Of a stretch of 64,000 nucleotides of DNA, positions 7,583 through 25,600 are shown in pieces (position 1 is the first letter of the stretch; each line of letters opens with the position of its first letter). Source of the stretch: Lachnospiraceae bacterium (GTDB taxonomy: Bacteria; Bacillota; Clostridia; Lachnospirales; Lachnospiraceae); the NCBI GenBank assembly GCA_900199595.1, contig FZRB01000010.1:1-64000 (forward strand). Direction: 5' to 3'. Both the position numbers and the translations under genes were made by a program. The notes below the pieces were generated by a model, which was not told the DNA's origin, made no database searches, and saw only the letters and a program-made list of their open reading frames with translations.

Positions 7583-7594
7583 TGTCGTCGAAAA

Positions 7595-7690
7595 AAGGGG
7601 AGCTGAACCTGATTCGGCTGAGAACAGACTGTATTGTCTGGACCCGTAACCTGATTTGGATAATGCCAACGTAGGGAAAGACTTTACATT
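7595..7690 (+). promoter_or_regulatory. TPP riboswitch (THI element)
   Basis: Conserved thiamin-pyrophosphate aptamer segments are present in order. GGGG begins near 7597, CTGAGAACAGACTG is at 7618-7631 and GACCCGTAACCTGAT at 7641-7655. TTGGATAATGCCAACGTAGG, the most conserved block, is at 7656-7675. It sits between a consensus promoter and a terminator that precede thiM. In this family TPP binding represses downstream genes; the terminator indicates control by premature termination. Confidence 0.95.
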
Positions 7691-7694
7691 TACA

Positions 7695-12083: not shown

Positions 12084-12189
12084 ATGACATAAGTGTCAAA
12101 AGTCAAAATGCGTTCCTGCTTGCAGGAAAAGCATGTTGACCTTATGACACGCTGAAACATGAGGAAATAGCAATTTTCGTTGAAAATCA
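12084..12189 (+). repeat. Dispersed palindromic repeat, long copy
   Basis: Inverted counterpart of positions 1-106, same length and about 87% identical. An imperfect palindrome (TGTCAAAAGTC...GACCTTATGACA) encloses TTCCTGC/GCAGGAA, followed by GCTGAAACATGAGGAAA and ATTTTC/GAAAAT. It immediately follows cytX and is the start of a 205-base stretch rich in nested hairpins; GGATTGC/GCAATCC around AATTGCT/AGCAAT follows at about 12211-12244. Confidence 0.75.
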
Positions 12190-12245
12190 GCGGTTTCCGA
12201 ATGTTTCTAGGATTGCGAGAATTGCTTTAGCAATGGAGCAATCCG

Positions 12246-12288
12246 TATGTCATATGGTGTCAAAAGGTACTTTTGACACCCACATCAT
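12246..12288 (-). repeat. Palindromic repeat, short copy
   Basis: Exact reverse complement of 9910-9952 over 43 bases. With that copy it forms a perfect inverted pair around thiD and cytX. It ends 15 bases before the stop codon of the PEBP lipoprotein gene. Confidence 0.8.
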
Positions 12289-19120: not shown

Positions 19121-20452
19121 TTAAGACACGCTTCTTTTATTAACATATATATATCGAAGTTTCCAGAAGTTTATAAGACATCTGAGGGTCTCATCTATAA
19201 CTACCAGACAGAATATCGCGATGATTCCCATATGAAAACCAAGCACAAGAATGGAACTGAATAGAATGATAAATGCTGTTCCGAACAGCTGCGTCTTAAG
19301 CATCCAGCTTGGCTCGCCATATCCTCTGATTCCTGAACCGAAAATGATATTTCCGCTCTTTGGAAAAAGATCGATTCCGACGATCAGAAGGAAAATCGGC
19401 GCCGCAGCGATCACCGCCGTATCCTTTGTAAACAGACCGAGAATCTGTGTCGGGATAATCATGAATATGATCAGGTTGATAACAGATATTCCCCAGCTTA
19501 GCAGGATAGAACTCTTAACAACATCCCATACTCCTTTTACATTCTTACGTCCCGTCTCATAACCTGAAAGAGTGAGGGTTGCCGTTCCTATAGAACCTAT
19601 CAGAACCACCGCTATCAGTTCCACACCGAATACTATCGAGTGAATGCCCGCTGCTTCTATAGAGACTTTGTTGAGCATTGCTATCAGATAGATATTTCCG
19701 AAATTCCAGGCAAAGTCTTCACAAGCTGTAGGAACACCAAACTTCACCGTTTTTAGATACGGTTTCAGTTTTGATTTTAAAATCTGACCAAGTGTCGGTT
19801 TCAAAATCAGATTTTTGGAAATGATCACATATAGCAGAACTATAATATCACCCAGAAGTTCGGCAAGGGTGGTAGCCAGAGCCGCTCCCTTGACCCCCAT
19901 TGCAGGGAACCCAAAATTACCAAATATAAGTATATAATCCAGAGCAATATTAAGGAGTGACCTTGAAACACCATACCATATCATGATATGCGTTTTCTGA
20001 CACACCTGAAGCATACAGCTTACTGAAGCACCAATCCCCGTAAGTATGAAGATCGGTGCAAAGTAATGTGCATAGTCAATACTCATTCCGATTATGCTCT
20101 CATCCACTCCCATCATACGAAATGCAATCTGCGGGCAGAGCAGCCAGAACAGAAACAAAACAAATCCAAGTACATTATTGTATTTAAATAGTGATGCCAA
20201 TGTATTTCTGGCTTTATCATGTTCACTTGCCCCATATGCCTGACTAACTATGATTGTCGCACCTGTTGTAAGTGAAAACATGGTACTCATGGTAGTCCAA
20301 AGCGGTGTAGATGCATTTCCTACCGCACTCATGCATTCAAGGGAAAGCTTTCCAATGAATACACGGTCGATAAGCATCTGCAGCTGGGATATAAGGTTTG
20401 AAAGCATTATTGGTATTGCAATTGCAAGTATTTTTTTTATGTATGATTTCAT
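19121..20452 (-). CDS. MATE-family multidrug exporter
   Basis: Integral membrane protein of 443 residues with about twelve hydrophobic segments in two homologous halves, as expected for multidrug and toxin extrusion transporters driven by Na+ or H+. The N terminus KILAIAIPIMLSNLISQLQM and LIDRVFIGKLSLECMSAVGN are classic for the family. GATIIVSQAYGASEHDKARN follows in loop 2-3 and IVSQ-like and GSGIRGYGEPSW segments later. The drug or metabolite exported is unknown. It is monocistronic by position, with remnants on one side and terminators on the other. Confidence 0.9.
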   Translation of the reverse strand: MKSYIKKILAIAIPIMLSNLISQLQMLIDRVFIGKLSLECMSAVGNASTPLWTTMSTMFSLTTGATIIVSQAYGASEHDKARNTLASLFKYNNVLGFVLFLFWLLCPQIAFRMMGVDESIIGMSIDYAHYFAPIFILTGIGASVSCMLQVCQKTHIMIWYGVSRSLLNIALDYILIFGNFGFPAMGVKGAALATTLAELLGDIIVLLYVIISKNLILKPTLGQILKSKLKPYLKTVKFGVPTACEDFAWNFGNIYLIAMLNKVSIEAAGIHSIVFGVELIAVVLIGSIGTATLTLSGYETGRKNVKGVWDVVKSSILLSWGISVINLIIFMIIPTQILGLFTKDTAVIAAAPIFLLIVGIDLFPKSGNIIFGSGIRGYGEPSWMLKTQLFGTAFIILFSSILVLGFHMGIIAIFCLVVIDETLRCLINFWKLRYIYVNKRSVS

Positions 20453-20622
20453 ATCTACTAAATTTCTTGACCTCGTCAGTAATACTGATTAAGTTAATGG
20501 TTCTATGTCTGAATGTCAAGAACATATATTTATTTAAATGTCCTTTTTTATGTATAATAAACCGATTCTCATTTTACTATCGAATAAACACAAAAGCGCA
20601 ACAAAGCATGTTTAGCACAGCG

Positions 20623-20663
20623 TTTTTTGTAAAATAGGAAACGCAGTTTCCTACTACAAAAAA
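20623..20663 (-). terminator. Second, probably bidirectional terminator hairpin
   Basis: TAGGAAAC-GCA-GTTTCCTA stem flanked by TTTTTTGT and ACAAAAAA arms that also pair, so a T run follows in either direction. It lies just beyond the first terminator of the 70-residue gene. Confidence 0.55.
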
Positions 20664-20684
20664 TCGTCCCTCTAAGGGACGATT
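20658..20684 (-). terminator. Terminator of the 70-residue acidic protein gene
   Basis: Perfect stem AATCGTCCC/GGGACGATT with a five-base loop, followed by a T run on the minus strand. It lies 28 bases downstream of the stop codon at 20712. Confidence 0.8.
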
Positions 20685-20711
20685 CAACATTAAATACTCT
20701 GTATTGTTACA

Positions 20712-20924
20712 TTATGCTCTTTTTACAAGTCCAACTAAAACTTCTGTGATTCCCCTATGTTTCTTTTCTATAGGAACAGGGGCTACTTCCTGATTAATAT
20801 CAAGATCTTCCGGCATCTCTTCCTGCGTCTCTTCCGTTTTTTCAGCAACGGAAATATCAAGATCTGTAGACAATTCTTCATCACCGAAACCCATCATTAC
20901 ATCAATATCCATCTCATCGAACAT
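20712..20924 (-). CDS. Small acidic protein under c-di-GMP riboswitch control
   Basis: A 70-residue protein of no recognised family. Residues 1-52 are very acidic and contain a recurring D-x-D-I/V element (MDIDV, TDLDIS, EDLDIN) around a Glu-rich stretch. The last 17 residues turn basic and amphipathic (KKHRGITEVLVGLVKRA). No signal peptide, membrane span or cysteine is present. GGAGG precedes the ATG. It is the only gene between its own promoter plus riboswitch and two terminators, so cyclic di-GMP must directly set its expression. That arrangement is the best evidence that it is real. A role as an adaptor or regulator is a guess. Confidence 0.75.
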   Translation of the reverse strand: MFDEMDIDVMMGFGDEELSTDLDISVAEKTEETQEEMPEDLDINQEVAPVPIEKKHRGITEVLVGLVKRA

Positions 20925-20953
20925 ACATTTACCTCCATATAACTAATATAAAT

Positions 20954-20992
20954 AAAAAAACATCAGAACTGGCTGTGCAGCCAACTCTGATG
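20954..20992 (-). terminator. Expression-platform terminator of the c-di-GMP riboswitch
   Basis: Thirty-two-base hairpin with outer stem CATCAG/CTGATG and inner GTTGGCTG/CAGCCAGT-type pairing, followed on the minus strand by seven T. It lies between the aptamer and the 70-residue gene. Its 5' arm (GTTGGCTGC) can alternatively pair with GCAGCCAGT at the 3' end of the aptamer, giving a plausible antiterminator. Confidence 0.85.
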
Positions 20993-21004
20993 AATCAATC
21001 ATTA

Positions 21005-21076
21005 AAGTGCAACTGGCTGCCATTTTAAAGGCCCTAATAGCTTTGCGTCGCCGGTTTTCACCGGTTTTGCCAACAT
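21005..21076 (-). promoter_or_regulatory. Cyclic di-GMP-I (GEMM-I) riboswitch aptamer
   Basis: Read on the minus strand, the stretch has the GEMM-I landmarks in order. GTTGGCAAAACCGG leads into a hairpin CCGGT-GAAA-ACCGG with the GAAA tetraloop. The highly conserved GACGCAAAGCT comes next, then AGGGCCT and ATGGCAGCCAGTTGC closing the aptamer. A consensus promoter lies just upstream and an intrinsic terminator just downstream. If ligand stabilises the aptamer and frees the terminator, this is an OFF switch; that direction is inferred from the alternative pairing. Confidence 0.92.
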
Positions 21077-21090
21077 ATTAAGTTAAGAAT

Positions 21091-21119
21091 ATTATATTAG
21101 ATTTAACGAATGACGTCAA
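21091..21119 (-). promoter_or_regulatory. Sigma-A promoter of the c-di-GMP riboswitch transcript
   Basis: On the minus strand, TTGACG (21119-21114) and TATAAT (21096-21091) are 17 bases apart. Transcription would begin near 21084, immediately before the aptamer. The promoter lies downstream of the neighbouring cyclase stop codon, so the small gene has its own transcript. Confidence 0.8.
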
Positions 21120-21130
21120 GCTTTATTCGC

Positions 21131-22216
21131 TTATTTATATATGCAATATCTATTCTCTTTATCATCCTTTGCTCTATATAATGCTATATCAGCTTTCTTA
21201 AATATTTCAGAATAGCTCTTTTCAACACCTTTATAAACTGCAATACCAATACTGGTACTTATTTTTTTATCTTTATCCGGCAGTTCTACTACTTCTGAAA
21301 TGTTATTTATTATTTCATTTGCTATTTCAACAGCAGTATCTTCATCATAGGTATTCCTGACAAACAGTATGAATTCATCTCCGCCAAAACGCCCTGTCAA
21401 TTCATCACCAAATTTATTCAAAAGGAAATTCGCAAACTGAATGATGACTCTGTCACCAATATCATGGCCGTAATTATCATTTATGAACTTGAACTTGTCG
21501 ATATCCATGATCAGCAGGAGACCCTTATCAGATGATTCATCTTTCAGAAATTCGTCTATTTCTCTAGTCAGAGCTCCTTTGTTTCTAAGTCCTGTCATAG
21601 CATCTGTATCTTTCTGAATACGGATTTTTTTTGTCAGGACAAACTCCTTAATTCGTATAGAATTCGCAACTACATTTAGAAAACATCCAATGATCGTGTA
21701 TGATAAGACATTGATAAAATCCATCTCCCATACCTCAAAAGGCTTAACAGCATACATCCATATCAAAAAAACAACAGATGCCGCAACCAGCTCAATAGTC
21801 ATAAAAAACGGCTTATCAATCATAAACATCGGAGTTACAAGCAGAAATGCAATAAATGTTGTTGCATTATGTTCAGGATTATTCATGCTTATTAAGCATC
21901 CAAAGAGAAACAGACACGACATTGAAAGATATATAAGAAGCTGCGCTGCAAGCGAGTCCTTCTCTAATATATAAAATAAAATGACAGCAATAACCGAATA
22001 TACAAATAGCCCCAGATAATAATATCTATTTATCGACATCATATCATTTACCAGAGACGCAATAAACAAACCAAAGAAAACTACAACCATAATAAAATGC
22101 AGTATCCTCCAGACTTCATAGTTCGAAACATACGCATCTTTTTTTAGTTCGTTATATTCTTCTTTTTCAATTCCGCAGTAGAAATAATATCTACGAATGG
22201 TCTTTAATAATTTCAT
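21131..22216 (-). CDS. Membrane diguanylate cyclase (GGDEF)
   Basis: A 361-residue protein. Residues 1-190 hold about six hydrophobic segments (for example ILHFIMVVVFFGLFIASLV and FIAFLLVTPMFMIDKPFF). A GGDEF domain follows from DTDAMTGLRNKGALTREID. LLIMDIDKFKFINDNYGHDI and GRFGGDEFILFV (motif near residue 279) are intact, so it should make cyclic di-GMP. It lies directly upstream of the c-di-GMP riboswitch, so the sensor for its product is encoded next door, but on a separate transcript. The signal read by the membrane part is unknown. Confidence 0.9.
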   Translation of the reverse strand: MKLLKTIRRYYFYCGIEKEEYNELKKDAYVSNYEVWRILHFIMVVVFFGLFIASLVNDMMSINRYYYLGLFVYSVIAVILFYILEKDSLAAQLLIYLSMSCLFLFGCLISMNNPEHNATTFIAFLLVTPMFMIDKPFFMTIELVAASVVFLIWMYAVKPFEVWEMDFINVLSYTIIGCFLNVVANSIRIKEFVLTKKIRIQKDTDAMTGLRNKGALTREIDEFLKDESSDKGLLLIMDIDKFKFINDNYGHDIGDRVIIQFANFLLNKFGDELTGRFGGDEFILFVRNTYDEDTAVEIANEIINNISEVVELPDKDKKISTSIGIAVYKGVEKSYSEIFKKADIALYRAKDDKENRYCIYK

Positions 22217-22458
22217 ACACTCTCACCCTATCGGAATCGGACAAAGCATCTTATTATATTATAATTCAAATTTTCGATTTCTTCAATATAAGCTATACTG
22301 TACAAAAACTTTACGTACGTCAAGTAAAATATATTTTTTACTTATATATCAATTTCCATATTTACAGCAGGCTTGAAATAATATAAGTATTTACCTCTTC
22401 CAAAAATAATGCTGAGTTTTTTCAGTATGCCCTCTGGAGTCAGACGAGATTATGATCG

Positions 22459-22667
22459 TTATTTTGCGGAGTAATAGCCTATTATACGGCCGACTCCCAC
22501 AATATTGCCTGTATTTCCTTCTGCATCGGTATCAAGGTCGTCCATGAATTCCTGGAGCTTTATAGCTGGCGTTCTGATGCTTCAGTTGACGGAGCAGGTT
22601 CTTTCGTGCATGCTGCTAATCCCAAAGCGAGTGTACCGATTAGAATGATTGACAAAAATCTACGCAT
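22459..22667 (-). pseudogene. PEBP-like lipoprotein gene with large internal deletion
   Basis: The 5' end encodes an intact lipoprotein signal peptide with its own AAAGGA site (MRRFLSIILIGTLALGLAAC, Cys in lipobox) and a short linker. The frame then stops at TAA after SERQL. In another frame the sequence resumes with the last 30 or so codons of a PEBP-like protein (DLDTDAEGNTGNIVGVGRII). This closely resembles the end of the intact lipoprotein at 12304 (DIDAEGNSGNIISVGRISG). Most of the PEBP domain is missing. The 240 bases on its 3' side (22217-22458) hold no other gene that I can recognise. Confidence 0.75.
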
Positions 22668-22686
22668 ATTGTTTTTTCCTTTCATC

Positions 22687-25600
22687 TTAACCTGGCAGTT
22701 TCTGCTGTAAATTATCTTTTTTCATATTGTTTTGATTATTCTTCTCTAATTCTGCTTTCTCAGCATCTTTCTGCTTTTTAAAGGTTCCATAGGATGCTTC
22801 TGTCTCACCCTTACCTAATACATTGACAAATCCCTGGTATTTTTTCTTTTCATTATCAGTAACTGCACCTTCAATACTTTTCTGTAAGGAGTTATCCCGA
22901 ATTTTAATTATATCAGAATGTATTGGAACCTTATCCGAAGATAAAATTGCATCTTCAAAGTTCTTTCCAAAAGTATTTCCCTCCTTAAACATCAGGTCTT
23001 TATACTTCTTAAACTGATCTGAATTCTCTTTAAAGGAAATACCCTTATTATTCTCCAGAGAGATCTCCCTTATTGCGGTTTCATACTCCTTGATCTTAGG
23101 CATCGTATCATCATACGAAGCCTTATTATAATAATTCTTATTAGCCCGATCTGTGTAAACGTTTCTGACGGATTCTACAAAAAGAGTCTTCTTTGCAGAA
23201 CTGAGTATTTTATTATTATACTCAGCCTTATCCTCTTTCTGGAAATTTTGATATTGCTCCTGAGTTATCCTGTTGTCAGCCAGATCGACTTCTCTCTGCT
23301 TTTTAATCCTTTGATATGTTTCAGCCTCTTTAATTCGATATTTTTCTTCATTAAGAATAACTTCTCTGGCTTTATTATCCAGTAAACGGTACTTTTCTCT
23401 GAGCATATCCTGCTTCATATTTTCGCCGTCAATCTTAAAGGGATCATCTTTATGGTTCCAGGTTATTCTTTGTGTATCTGTGAATCCATTTCTCTGGAAA
23501 TCCTTTGTTGTCTTATATAGATTTTCTAAAGTATTCTTCGCCTCAAGCATGGCTCTGTAACGCTTAGCTCCGTTTACACCAAGCAGAGCTATATCTTCAT
23601 CTCTTTCTGGATTACCCTTCTTCTTTCTTATTTTTCTATTTTTATCACTAAGGTATGAATTTATTATTTTATATGTTTCTTTCTGCAGATCAATGTATTT
23701 CTGCATTTCTTTTTCATCTACCTTAAGAGATGAACTTTCATTAAATTTAACAGACAGCTCTTCTTTAAATTTCTCCCTCTGTTTATCTAATAATTTCAGA
23801 TTGTCCATAACGTCACTAAAACGAGTATTGGTAGTAAAAACCCCCACATCAGCTTTTTCCATGATGTCTAATGCTTCTGACAAAGTTTTGTCATTTTCTT
23901 TGTTTTCATGTCTGCCATTAGCAAATCCTTTAATACGACTAAGTGCCATTGAGGTTTCTATTCTGTCTTTAATATCTGACATATGAGGTTCATGATCTCC
24001 GAATTCAAGAATATCCGCTATTACATCATTAGAAGGAAGCTTACCCTCATTATTCTTCAGGCTTTTGATCAACTCATCAGAATACTTTTCACATTCTTTA
24101 TTCAGCCTCCGTTCAACAACTGAATAATAAGTATTTTGTCGCATAAAAAGCTCCGGATTACTGTGAATATTTTTATCATTCATATAGTAGTTCTTAATAT
24201 ATTGGGTAATGCGGCTCTTTAATTCATTTTCAGATAAATCCTTATTTGTTCTTATGGATTCTGCAGTTGTTTTCATATCATCACTGAAATCCGATTTTTT
24301 AAATATATCTCCCTTGCTTATATTGTCACCATAATATAGACTCTTACCGGTCTTGATATCTTCAATACATGCATTCGTAACCCTTTTTAAGAATCCTCTA
24401 TCGATGATATCCAGACTTACTTTACTAATGTCTTTTACTAAATCGTCGTTTGAAGCCTTTTTCTGAAAGTCTTCGATAATACTTATTGCCTCAAGCACAT
24501 CTGATGAAGACCTTATTTTCATATTCGAAAGAAGTTCCTTTACAGGCTTGAAATGTTTCTCCTCCCAGTCATTATATTTTACAAGAGTATCCATATCACC
24601 GGTAAACTGGGCATTATATTTTTTCATATTTAGTGTGCCTTCGAAAATACCCATTAAATTCAATGCTTCGAGATCCCTGCTTCCCCAGCCGTTATGAATA
24701 CCCTGCTTCATCCATCTAAGACCTTCAATATACTTTGTTACTCCACGTTTTTCATCCGGAGTACCCTTGCTGGTCATATGTCCCAACGAATTTCCATACA
24801 TTTTCGATAACTTATCCTGCTGTAAATTATCAGGGAACTTTTCCAGCTGATCATATTCTGAGATTATTTTATCGAATGAATGTTCAAGCCTTGCTAGATA
24901 TCTTGTCTCTTTAAGAGCAGTCCAGTTATCTTTCATCCCCCTTTGTTTAAAAGATAACGCATCTAAATATTCTTCAGCACCATCAAAAAACCTCATAAGT
25001 GGACGCTTAACACCAGTTGTCTGAAAATACTCTCTAACCTGCTCTGGCGTTATTCCCGATTTGTCAACAATACTCCTGAATATTTCCGGTCCTGCTCCCG
25101 AAACATTAGACATCAATGGGTCAATAAATGCATTATCGCCGTAGAATTCTATAACATCAGCTCTATCTATATCTCCGGGTGCAGCTAAAATCTTCGTATA
25201 CGAATTAAATGACTTTATTGCACTGTTGCTCTTAGCTAAAGTCTCCTGCGCCCATTTACTCAATATTTTGTTTTTTTCCTCAAGTTCTTTATTATTATCG
25301 GTTAAGATTACTAAATTATAGTGAGGATCCTTACCAAAGCATAATGGAGCAAAGAGTTCATTATCACGAGAAATTTGAACTTCTGATTTATCAACCAATT
25401 CAAATATATCGTTGTTTACTGTTTGAAAATCTTCGTAATGCTCTGAAGCCATCATGATAGGTTTTAAGAAATACTTATTTGCTACAAAGCGTTGATTATA
25501 TTTTTCATAATCATCCTTTTGAAACAGGTTTTTCTCAAACTCAGTATCTTTTACAGGCTTGATGAATCCATACTGTGCAGCTTTGTCTACTGCCTTCCTG

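Follow-up and report, generated by a model that had tools for sequence, protein, structure and literature searches.

Among the closest described counterparts of the locus analyzed here is Cd1 (Cdi1_3), the c-di-GMP-I OFF riboswitch located before flgB in C. difficile, whose antiterminator, according to passages of PMC9262584, uses the strand that stabilizes the aptamer, whose aptamer and terminator can coexist, and whose read-through depends on kinetics. For 11 of 12 c-di-GMP-I riboswitches in C. difficile, passages of PMC3649979 report a reduced expression in response to c-di-GMP, and one switch of this class is described as ON in a section of PMC6200980. Five 'small hypothetical proteins' are preceded by c-di-GMP-I riboswitches in the same organism (excerpt of PMC11477304). 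The riboswitches Cdi1_8 to Cdi1_11 precede CD1990.3, CD2309, CD1424, and CD3368.2, four highly alike regions that were taken as duplicated (passages of PMC3649979), and repression by c-di-GMP was observed for CD2309 (passages of PMC3649979 and PMC11477304).

The current study concerns a cassette on the minus strand of a 64,000-nucleotide stretch of a Lachnospiraceae genome (contig FZRB01000010.1), here called the window, whose aptamer, terminator, antiterminator fold, real gene, and conserved arrangement were established by computation. The cassette shares with Cd1 the aptamer class and, in the predicted folds, the strand logic (compared with passages of PMC9262584), but Cd1 controls a flagellar operon, whereas the cassette controls a lone small gene. 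Like Cdi1_8 to Cdi1_11, it places a c-di-GMP-I switch before a small hypothetical gene, a likeness that concerns the arrangement; the C. difficile copies are located within one genome, whereas the cassette occupies different places across species. Precedent thus exists for the arrangement, and the novelty lies in the protein family and in the occurrence of the cassette at different places in related species. Judged by titles and the starts of abstracts, none of the open papers listed in literature searches describes this family or cassette; a paper elsewhere is possible. We favor, with a probability of roughly 55%, the reading of a stand-alone c-di-GMP-repressed expression cassette with an adaptor-like product, where the adaptor part is to be taken loosely.

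Motility, the customary explanation for a c-di-GMP OFF switch, is not a fitting one in this genus. None of the 61 genus genomes yielded the flagellar protein FlhA (PF00771; control, 4 of 14), which makes flagella an unlikely target, and flagellar motility was dismissed as a candidate. The cassette defines a small-protein family whose complete copies all follow a c-di-GMP riboswitch in a genus without detected FlhA. In C. difficile, the annotation of the small proteins that follow such switches goes no further than hypothetical. The present case, the second, adds several species, a pair of conserved peptides, and a membrane protein that is a candidate relative, and thereby offers handles on the function of such proteins.

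Layout of the cassette

The following features, all on the minus strand, were mapped in the window.

21131 to 22216, minus strand: GGDEF diguanylate cyclase gene, upstream neighbor (PF00990, 121.2 bits); not part of the conserved unit
21091 to 21119, minus strand: promoter TTGACG-17-TATAAT (11 of 12 consensus matches)
21005 to 21081, minus strand: c-di-GMP-I (GEMM-I) aptamer, RF01051 (53.2 bits; gathering threshold, 35)
20977 to 21020, minus strand: predicted antiterminator hairpin of the aptamer 3' strand and the terminator 5' arm (minimum-energy fold of the transcript ending in the terminator loop)
20954 to 20992, minus strand: riboswitch intrinsic terminator including the T run (terminator scan)
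20932 to 20936, minus strand: Shine-Dalgarno site GGAGG, 7 nt upstream of the start codon (read from the sequence)
20712 to 20924, minus strand: gene for the 70-residue acidic protein, stop codon included (ORF, homologues, and selection)
20661 to 20685, minus strand: gene-end terminator (terminator scan, 11 pairs)
19121 to 20452, minus strand: MATE transporter gene, downstream neighbor (PF01554, 132.9 bits); not part of the conserved unit

These parts agree with the span of 20658 to 21119 and with the self-contained minus-strand unit of the original prediction, since promoter, aptamer, terminator, gene, and final terminator were all found and homology between the complete units is confined to the cassette. 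A pair of terminators had been proposed behind the gene; the scan recovered one (20685 to 20661), whereas the second is a weak hairpin seen by eye only. The promoter was the best among 22 promoter-like sites in the region from 19500 to 23000 (mean of shuffles, 14.7), and the same region contains five terminator-like sites versus a mean of 1.6 in shuffles. The riboswitch terminator comprises 14 pairs (20992 to 20961) directly followed by seven T. The scan found no terminator-like site in the gap that separates the riboswitch promoter from the cyclase gene (window 21120 to 21131, minus strand), so that cyclase transcripts may continue into the riboswitch. A frame of four codons (MYVR; window 20914 to 20928, minus strand) starts at an upstream ATG, overlaps the beginning of the small gene, and is kept in all five complete units.

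Distribution and relocation of the cassette

Homologues of the small protein were detected in six of 61 genus genomes, including the window's own, and the same six were recovered by a profile at E < 1e-11. Searches at the level of the family (1 of 397 genomes) and of the class (1 of 391 genomes), each with genomes drawn from a larger group, returned only the own genome; homologues were present in five records of genome_contigs, and none was found in viral contigs, plasmids, or phages. A weak profile match in G040 (E 0.08) is by eye a long acidic protein and was rejected, and another weak match was located in G002 (E 0.4). The original prediction had proposed to look upstream of the homologues: five of the six copies follow a GEMM-I aptamer, and the sixth is truncated at a contig start (L006, G042, positions 1 to 246), where it lacks the leader and the first codons, i.e., the N-terminus. 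In G042, the apparent end of a GGDEF gene runs by eye straight into the truncated small gene, which could stem from a genuine deletion or from faulty assembly.

Promoter, aptamer, terminator, and Shine-Dalgarno site are conserved across the five complete units, all of which contain TTGACG and TATAAT with a spacing of 17 or 18 and an identical GGAGG. The boundaries of the unit were determined by plus-strand DNA comparison of 3.2 to 3.4 kb around each complete copy. The upstream edge of the homology between units varies from roughly 30 nt ahead of the -35 box to roughly 20 nt within the promoter, and the downstream edge lies at most 3 nt past the stop codon. Beyond this, matches at E 1e-3 were confined to the GEMM aptamers numbered second and third in G004 and to a single 28-nt stretch common to the window and G056. 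The units are flanked by glycosyl hydrolase 1 and NrdR in G007, StiP and FeoA in G056, HAD and glycosyl hydrolase 3 in G029, and DUF4291 and further GEMM units in G004. Homology confined to the cassette together with unrelated neighbors indicates a discrete cassette, which appears from these comparisons to have been relocated between places in related species.

Aptamer and predicted switching

The GEMM-I assignment made at the outset was borne out by the Rfam covariance model, which it had named as a check (E 1.4e-7, model positions 1 to 87), and the aptamers of the four other complete units (L007, L008, L010, and L011) scored 51.2 to 55.3 bits. The cassette is almost certainly a riboswitch unit. 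On the Rfam alignment, the G before the GC pair and the C after the P3 3' strand are kept by eye, positions that we take to be the ligand contacts G20 and C92. The identity of G20 and C92 separates c-di-GMP from cGAMP aptamers. Inspection by eye revealed no clear P1 helix in the aptamer. Judging from its sequence, the switch would respond to c-di-GMP.

In the ligand-free minimum-energy fold of a transcript ending in the terminator loop, the aptamer 3' strand pairs with the terminator 5' arm in all five units, in G004 in a shifted register; the OFF architecture originally proposed from this pairing is supported by computation only. The antiterminator breaks P3, which makes aptamer and antiterminator mutually exclusive, whereas aptamer and terminator do not overlap and can form together. 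The terminator is formed in the minimum-energy fold of the complete leader in five of five units, so that read-through, i.e., the ON state, must be kinetic.

The direct antiterminator duplex was reached by 1.6% of 500 mononucleotide shuffles of the arm in the window, 1.8% in G056, 3.8% in G004, 6.8% in G029, and 27% in G007, so that the duplex of G007 adds no support. On the five-row alignment, 93.8% of the antiterminator cells are paired with one compensatory pair (slid pairs, 23.7 to 44.7%), compared with 95.7% and two compensatory pairs for the riboswitch terminator and 100% and one compensatory pair for the aptamer. The covariation scores of the antiterminator, the terminator, and the aptamer were reached by 103, 70, and 104 of 500 shuffles, respectively, and with five sequences covariation alone is therefore not significant.

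A near-consensus housekeeping promoter would initiate the leader. In the absence of c-di-GMP, the aptamer 3' strand and the terminator 5' arm would form the antiterminator, and polymerase would continue into the small gene. Binding of c-di-GMP would keep the aptamer closed, the terminator would form, and the gene would be off. The small, acidic, and mostly disordered protein would accordingly be a product of low c-di-GMP. We infer this OFF direction for the cell from architecture and precedent, and it is very probable on these grounds: a terminator compatible with the aptamer and an antiterminator that breaks it, as in Cd1, were both found in the predicted folds, with the G007 duplex not above shuffles.

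The small gene and its product

The window protein has 70 aa, a pI of 4.05, and a charge of about -14, and the five complete proteins range from 70 to 135 residues with pI values of 4.05 to 4.60. Conserved sequence is located at both ends, with MYDEMDIDVMxGIxDEELPT at the N-terminus of most homologues and EKKHRGITEVLVGLVKRA at the C-terminus in the window, G007, and G004, and the acidic linker between the two ends varies in length. The acidic D-x-D-I repeats pointed out in the original prediction did not withstand the comparison: other complete homologues keep just the first, the N-terminal MDID, and the repeats were ruled out as a functional feature. That the family would not be recognizable was correct, since neither Pfam, NCBIfam, nor PHROGs contained a match to the window protein at E 1. 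Single relatives gave a few matches (Pfam, E 0.012 at best) that resemble chance, and a profile search of PDB sequences returned one match at E 0.46.

The small gene is a real gene. In the two conserved blocks combined, dN was lower than dS in 10 of 10 pairs of the five complete copies, and the lengths are in frame in all gene copies. For pairs with the window, the C-terminal block, which carries the signal, shows 4 to 9 synonymous versus 0 or 1 nonsynonymous codon differences. The N-terminal block shows 2 to 5 synonymous versus 9 to 11 nonsynonymous differences and is thus less constrained.

The AlphaFold model is of low confidence (pLDDT 59.6, pTM 0.20), with a sole helix at residues 59 to 69, and it fits a disordered protein with two conserved ends. 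The amphipathicity of the C-terminal helix is not significant, as it was reached by 7.7% of shuffles for RGITEVLVGLVKRA and by 3.3% for an inner piece. A query with the 25 C-terminal residues retrieved six family members and two weak matches (E 0.22 and 0.83), the first of which was dropped after inspection of the DNA. The codon pattern for ITEV[LF] had 14 matches in the own genome versus 4 in the control; the 13 matches outside the small gene showed no comparable C-terminal tail by eye and were set aside.

A candidate related membrane protein family

The N-terminal peptide of the small protein may be shared with one family of single-pass membrane proteins in the same genus (L100, L124, L127, and L129), which carry D-[DE]-[LM]-[ND]-[IF]-D-x-[LIM]-[LIM] from residue 2 or 3 onward. 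The membrane proteins have a membrane segment and an ectodomain, whereas the 70-residue protein is without either and ends with a short C-terminal helix. At E 0.1, the membrane protein has homologues in 54 of the 61 genomes, and the aligned ones were often without the peptide; in three scanned membrane proteins, no Pfam family was found above cut-off. One member is encoded in the own genome (L127, C7, 1501 to 2289). A stretch SFTEVL/SFTEIL that resembles the C-terminus of the small protein occurs in the membrane relatives L125 and L126 but was not relied on. A match of profile A4 to L100 (E 1.3e-15) was discarded as circular because the N-terminus of L100 was itself a row of A4.

Alternative explanations and proposed roles of the protein

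The competing readings concern the direction of the switch, the significance of the open reading frame, and the partner of the protein. An ON switch, in which c-di-GMP favors read-through and the protein is produced at high c-di-GMP, has a precedent in the one positively regulated C. difficile class I switch (section of PMC6200980) but is improbable, because aptamer and terminator coexist and only the antiterminator breaks the aptamer, which is the layout of the OFF switch Cd1. A conserved leader DNA and a linker that is free to vary would also be expected if the leader RNA were what matters and the open reading frame a by-product; the predominance of synonymous changes in the C-terminal block, the in-frame lengths of all copies, and the conserved Shine-Dalgarno site leave hardly any room for this explanation. 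The neighboring cyclase gene gave rise to the idea of a feedback peptide that tunes the diguanylate cyclase. The gene does adjoin the cassette, as originally noted, lies on the same strand, and ends 12 nt before the -35 box, and in G042 the apparent GGDEF end likewise runs into the small gene; a complete cyclase, however, flanks the window unit only (one of five complete units), and the flanking genes examined at the four others comprise no c-di-GMP genes. A place of the cyclase in the system is thus not supported, and the feedback is highly unlikely.

Within the preferred c-di-GMP-repressed cassette, an adaptor role of the small protein, in keeping with the binding or adaptor peptide suggested originally, is a tentative proposal. 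The conserved N-terminal peptide would dock on a partner, the acidic linker would act as a spacer whose length is free, and the C-terminal helix, which is conserved and basic, would bind a second protein or the membrane face. A less probable and rather doubtful alternative assigns the protein the role of a decoy or mimic, i.e., a soluble duplicate of the tail that the single-pass membrane proteins have at their cytoplasmic N-terminus: falling c-di-GMP would release a competitor or shuttle that competes for or carries the cytoplasmic partner of the tail, and the cassette would move between species as a unit. The profile search matched L100, a 262-residue membrane protein of G007, at E 0.04, which over 61 genomes is chance level; the reverse search gave E 0.0027, and the pairwise alignment of the two proteins starts at residue 1 of both with 35% over 52 residues, whereas hhalign of the two profiles was weak (P 0.022, probability 2%). 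A coding pattern of the shared peptide had 27 matches in the 61 genomes versus 19 for the reversed pattern, and 9 of the 27 are located at a protein start, namely, five small proteins and four of the membrane family (G000, G007, G042, and G047). This pattern was designed after both families were known, so that their presence is by design and the result shows that no other protein start matches in 61 genomes. Three of the four genomes with a peptide-bearing membrane protein also carry the small gene, but the carriers G004 and G029 had no peptide-bearing membrane homologue in the searches made, and the C-terminal helix is without a sure counterpart in the membrane proteins. We take these results as suggestive of a docking peptide shared by the small protein and the membrane family.

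Other GEMM-I aptamers and structured RNAs

The GEMM survey of the genus comprised 40 regions around short aptamers, taken among the matches listed. In 21 of these regions, a motif search identified 22 aptamers, and among the ORFs read for 20 of the aptamer-containing regions or aptamers no relative of the small protein was seen by eye. By eye, the genes behind other GEMM-I aptamers examined in the genus encode prepilin-like and surface proteins, small HTH regulators, a phosphatase, and a kinase. A second GEMM-I leader, 85% like the first, immediately follows the small acidic gene in G004 (L011, 1821 to 2067), and a hydrophobic ORF of 23 codons comes next (1996 to 2067). Aptamers before small HTH (excisionase-like) genes were observed in G004 (L011, 2216 to 2589) and in the own genome (L004, C43, 1501 to 1861), and the same pairing was recognized by eye in L064, L073, L074, and L081. 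The own genome also contains a GEMM-I aptamer before a prepilin-like gene (L001, C13, 716 to 1605), an arrangement seen by eye in L058, L059, L060, and L063 as well. With respect to further RNAs, the window carries a TPP riboswitch that scored barely above the threshold (7591 to 7694, plus strand; 54.6 versus 54.3) and a Clostridiales-1 RNA (12085 to 12252, plus strand; 114.9 bits), of which a further partial match is present in L001.
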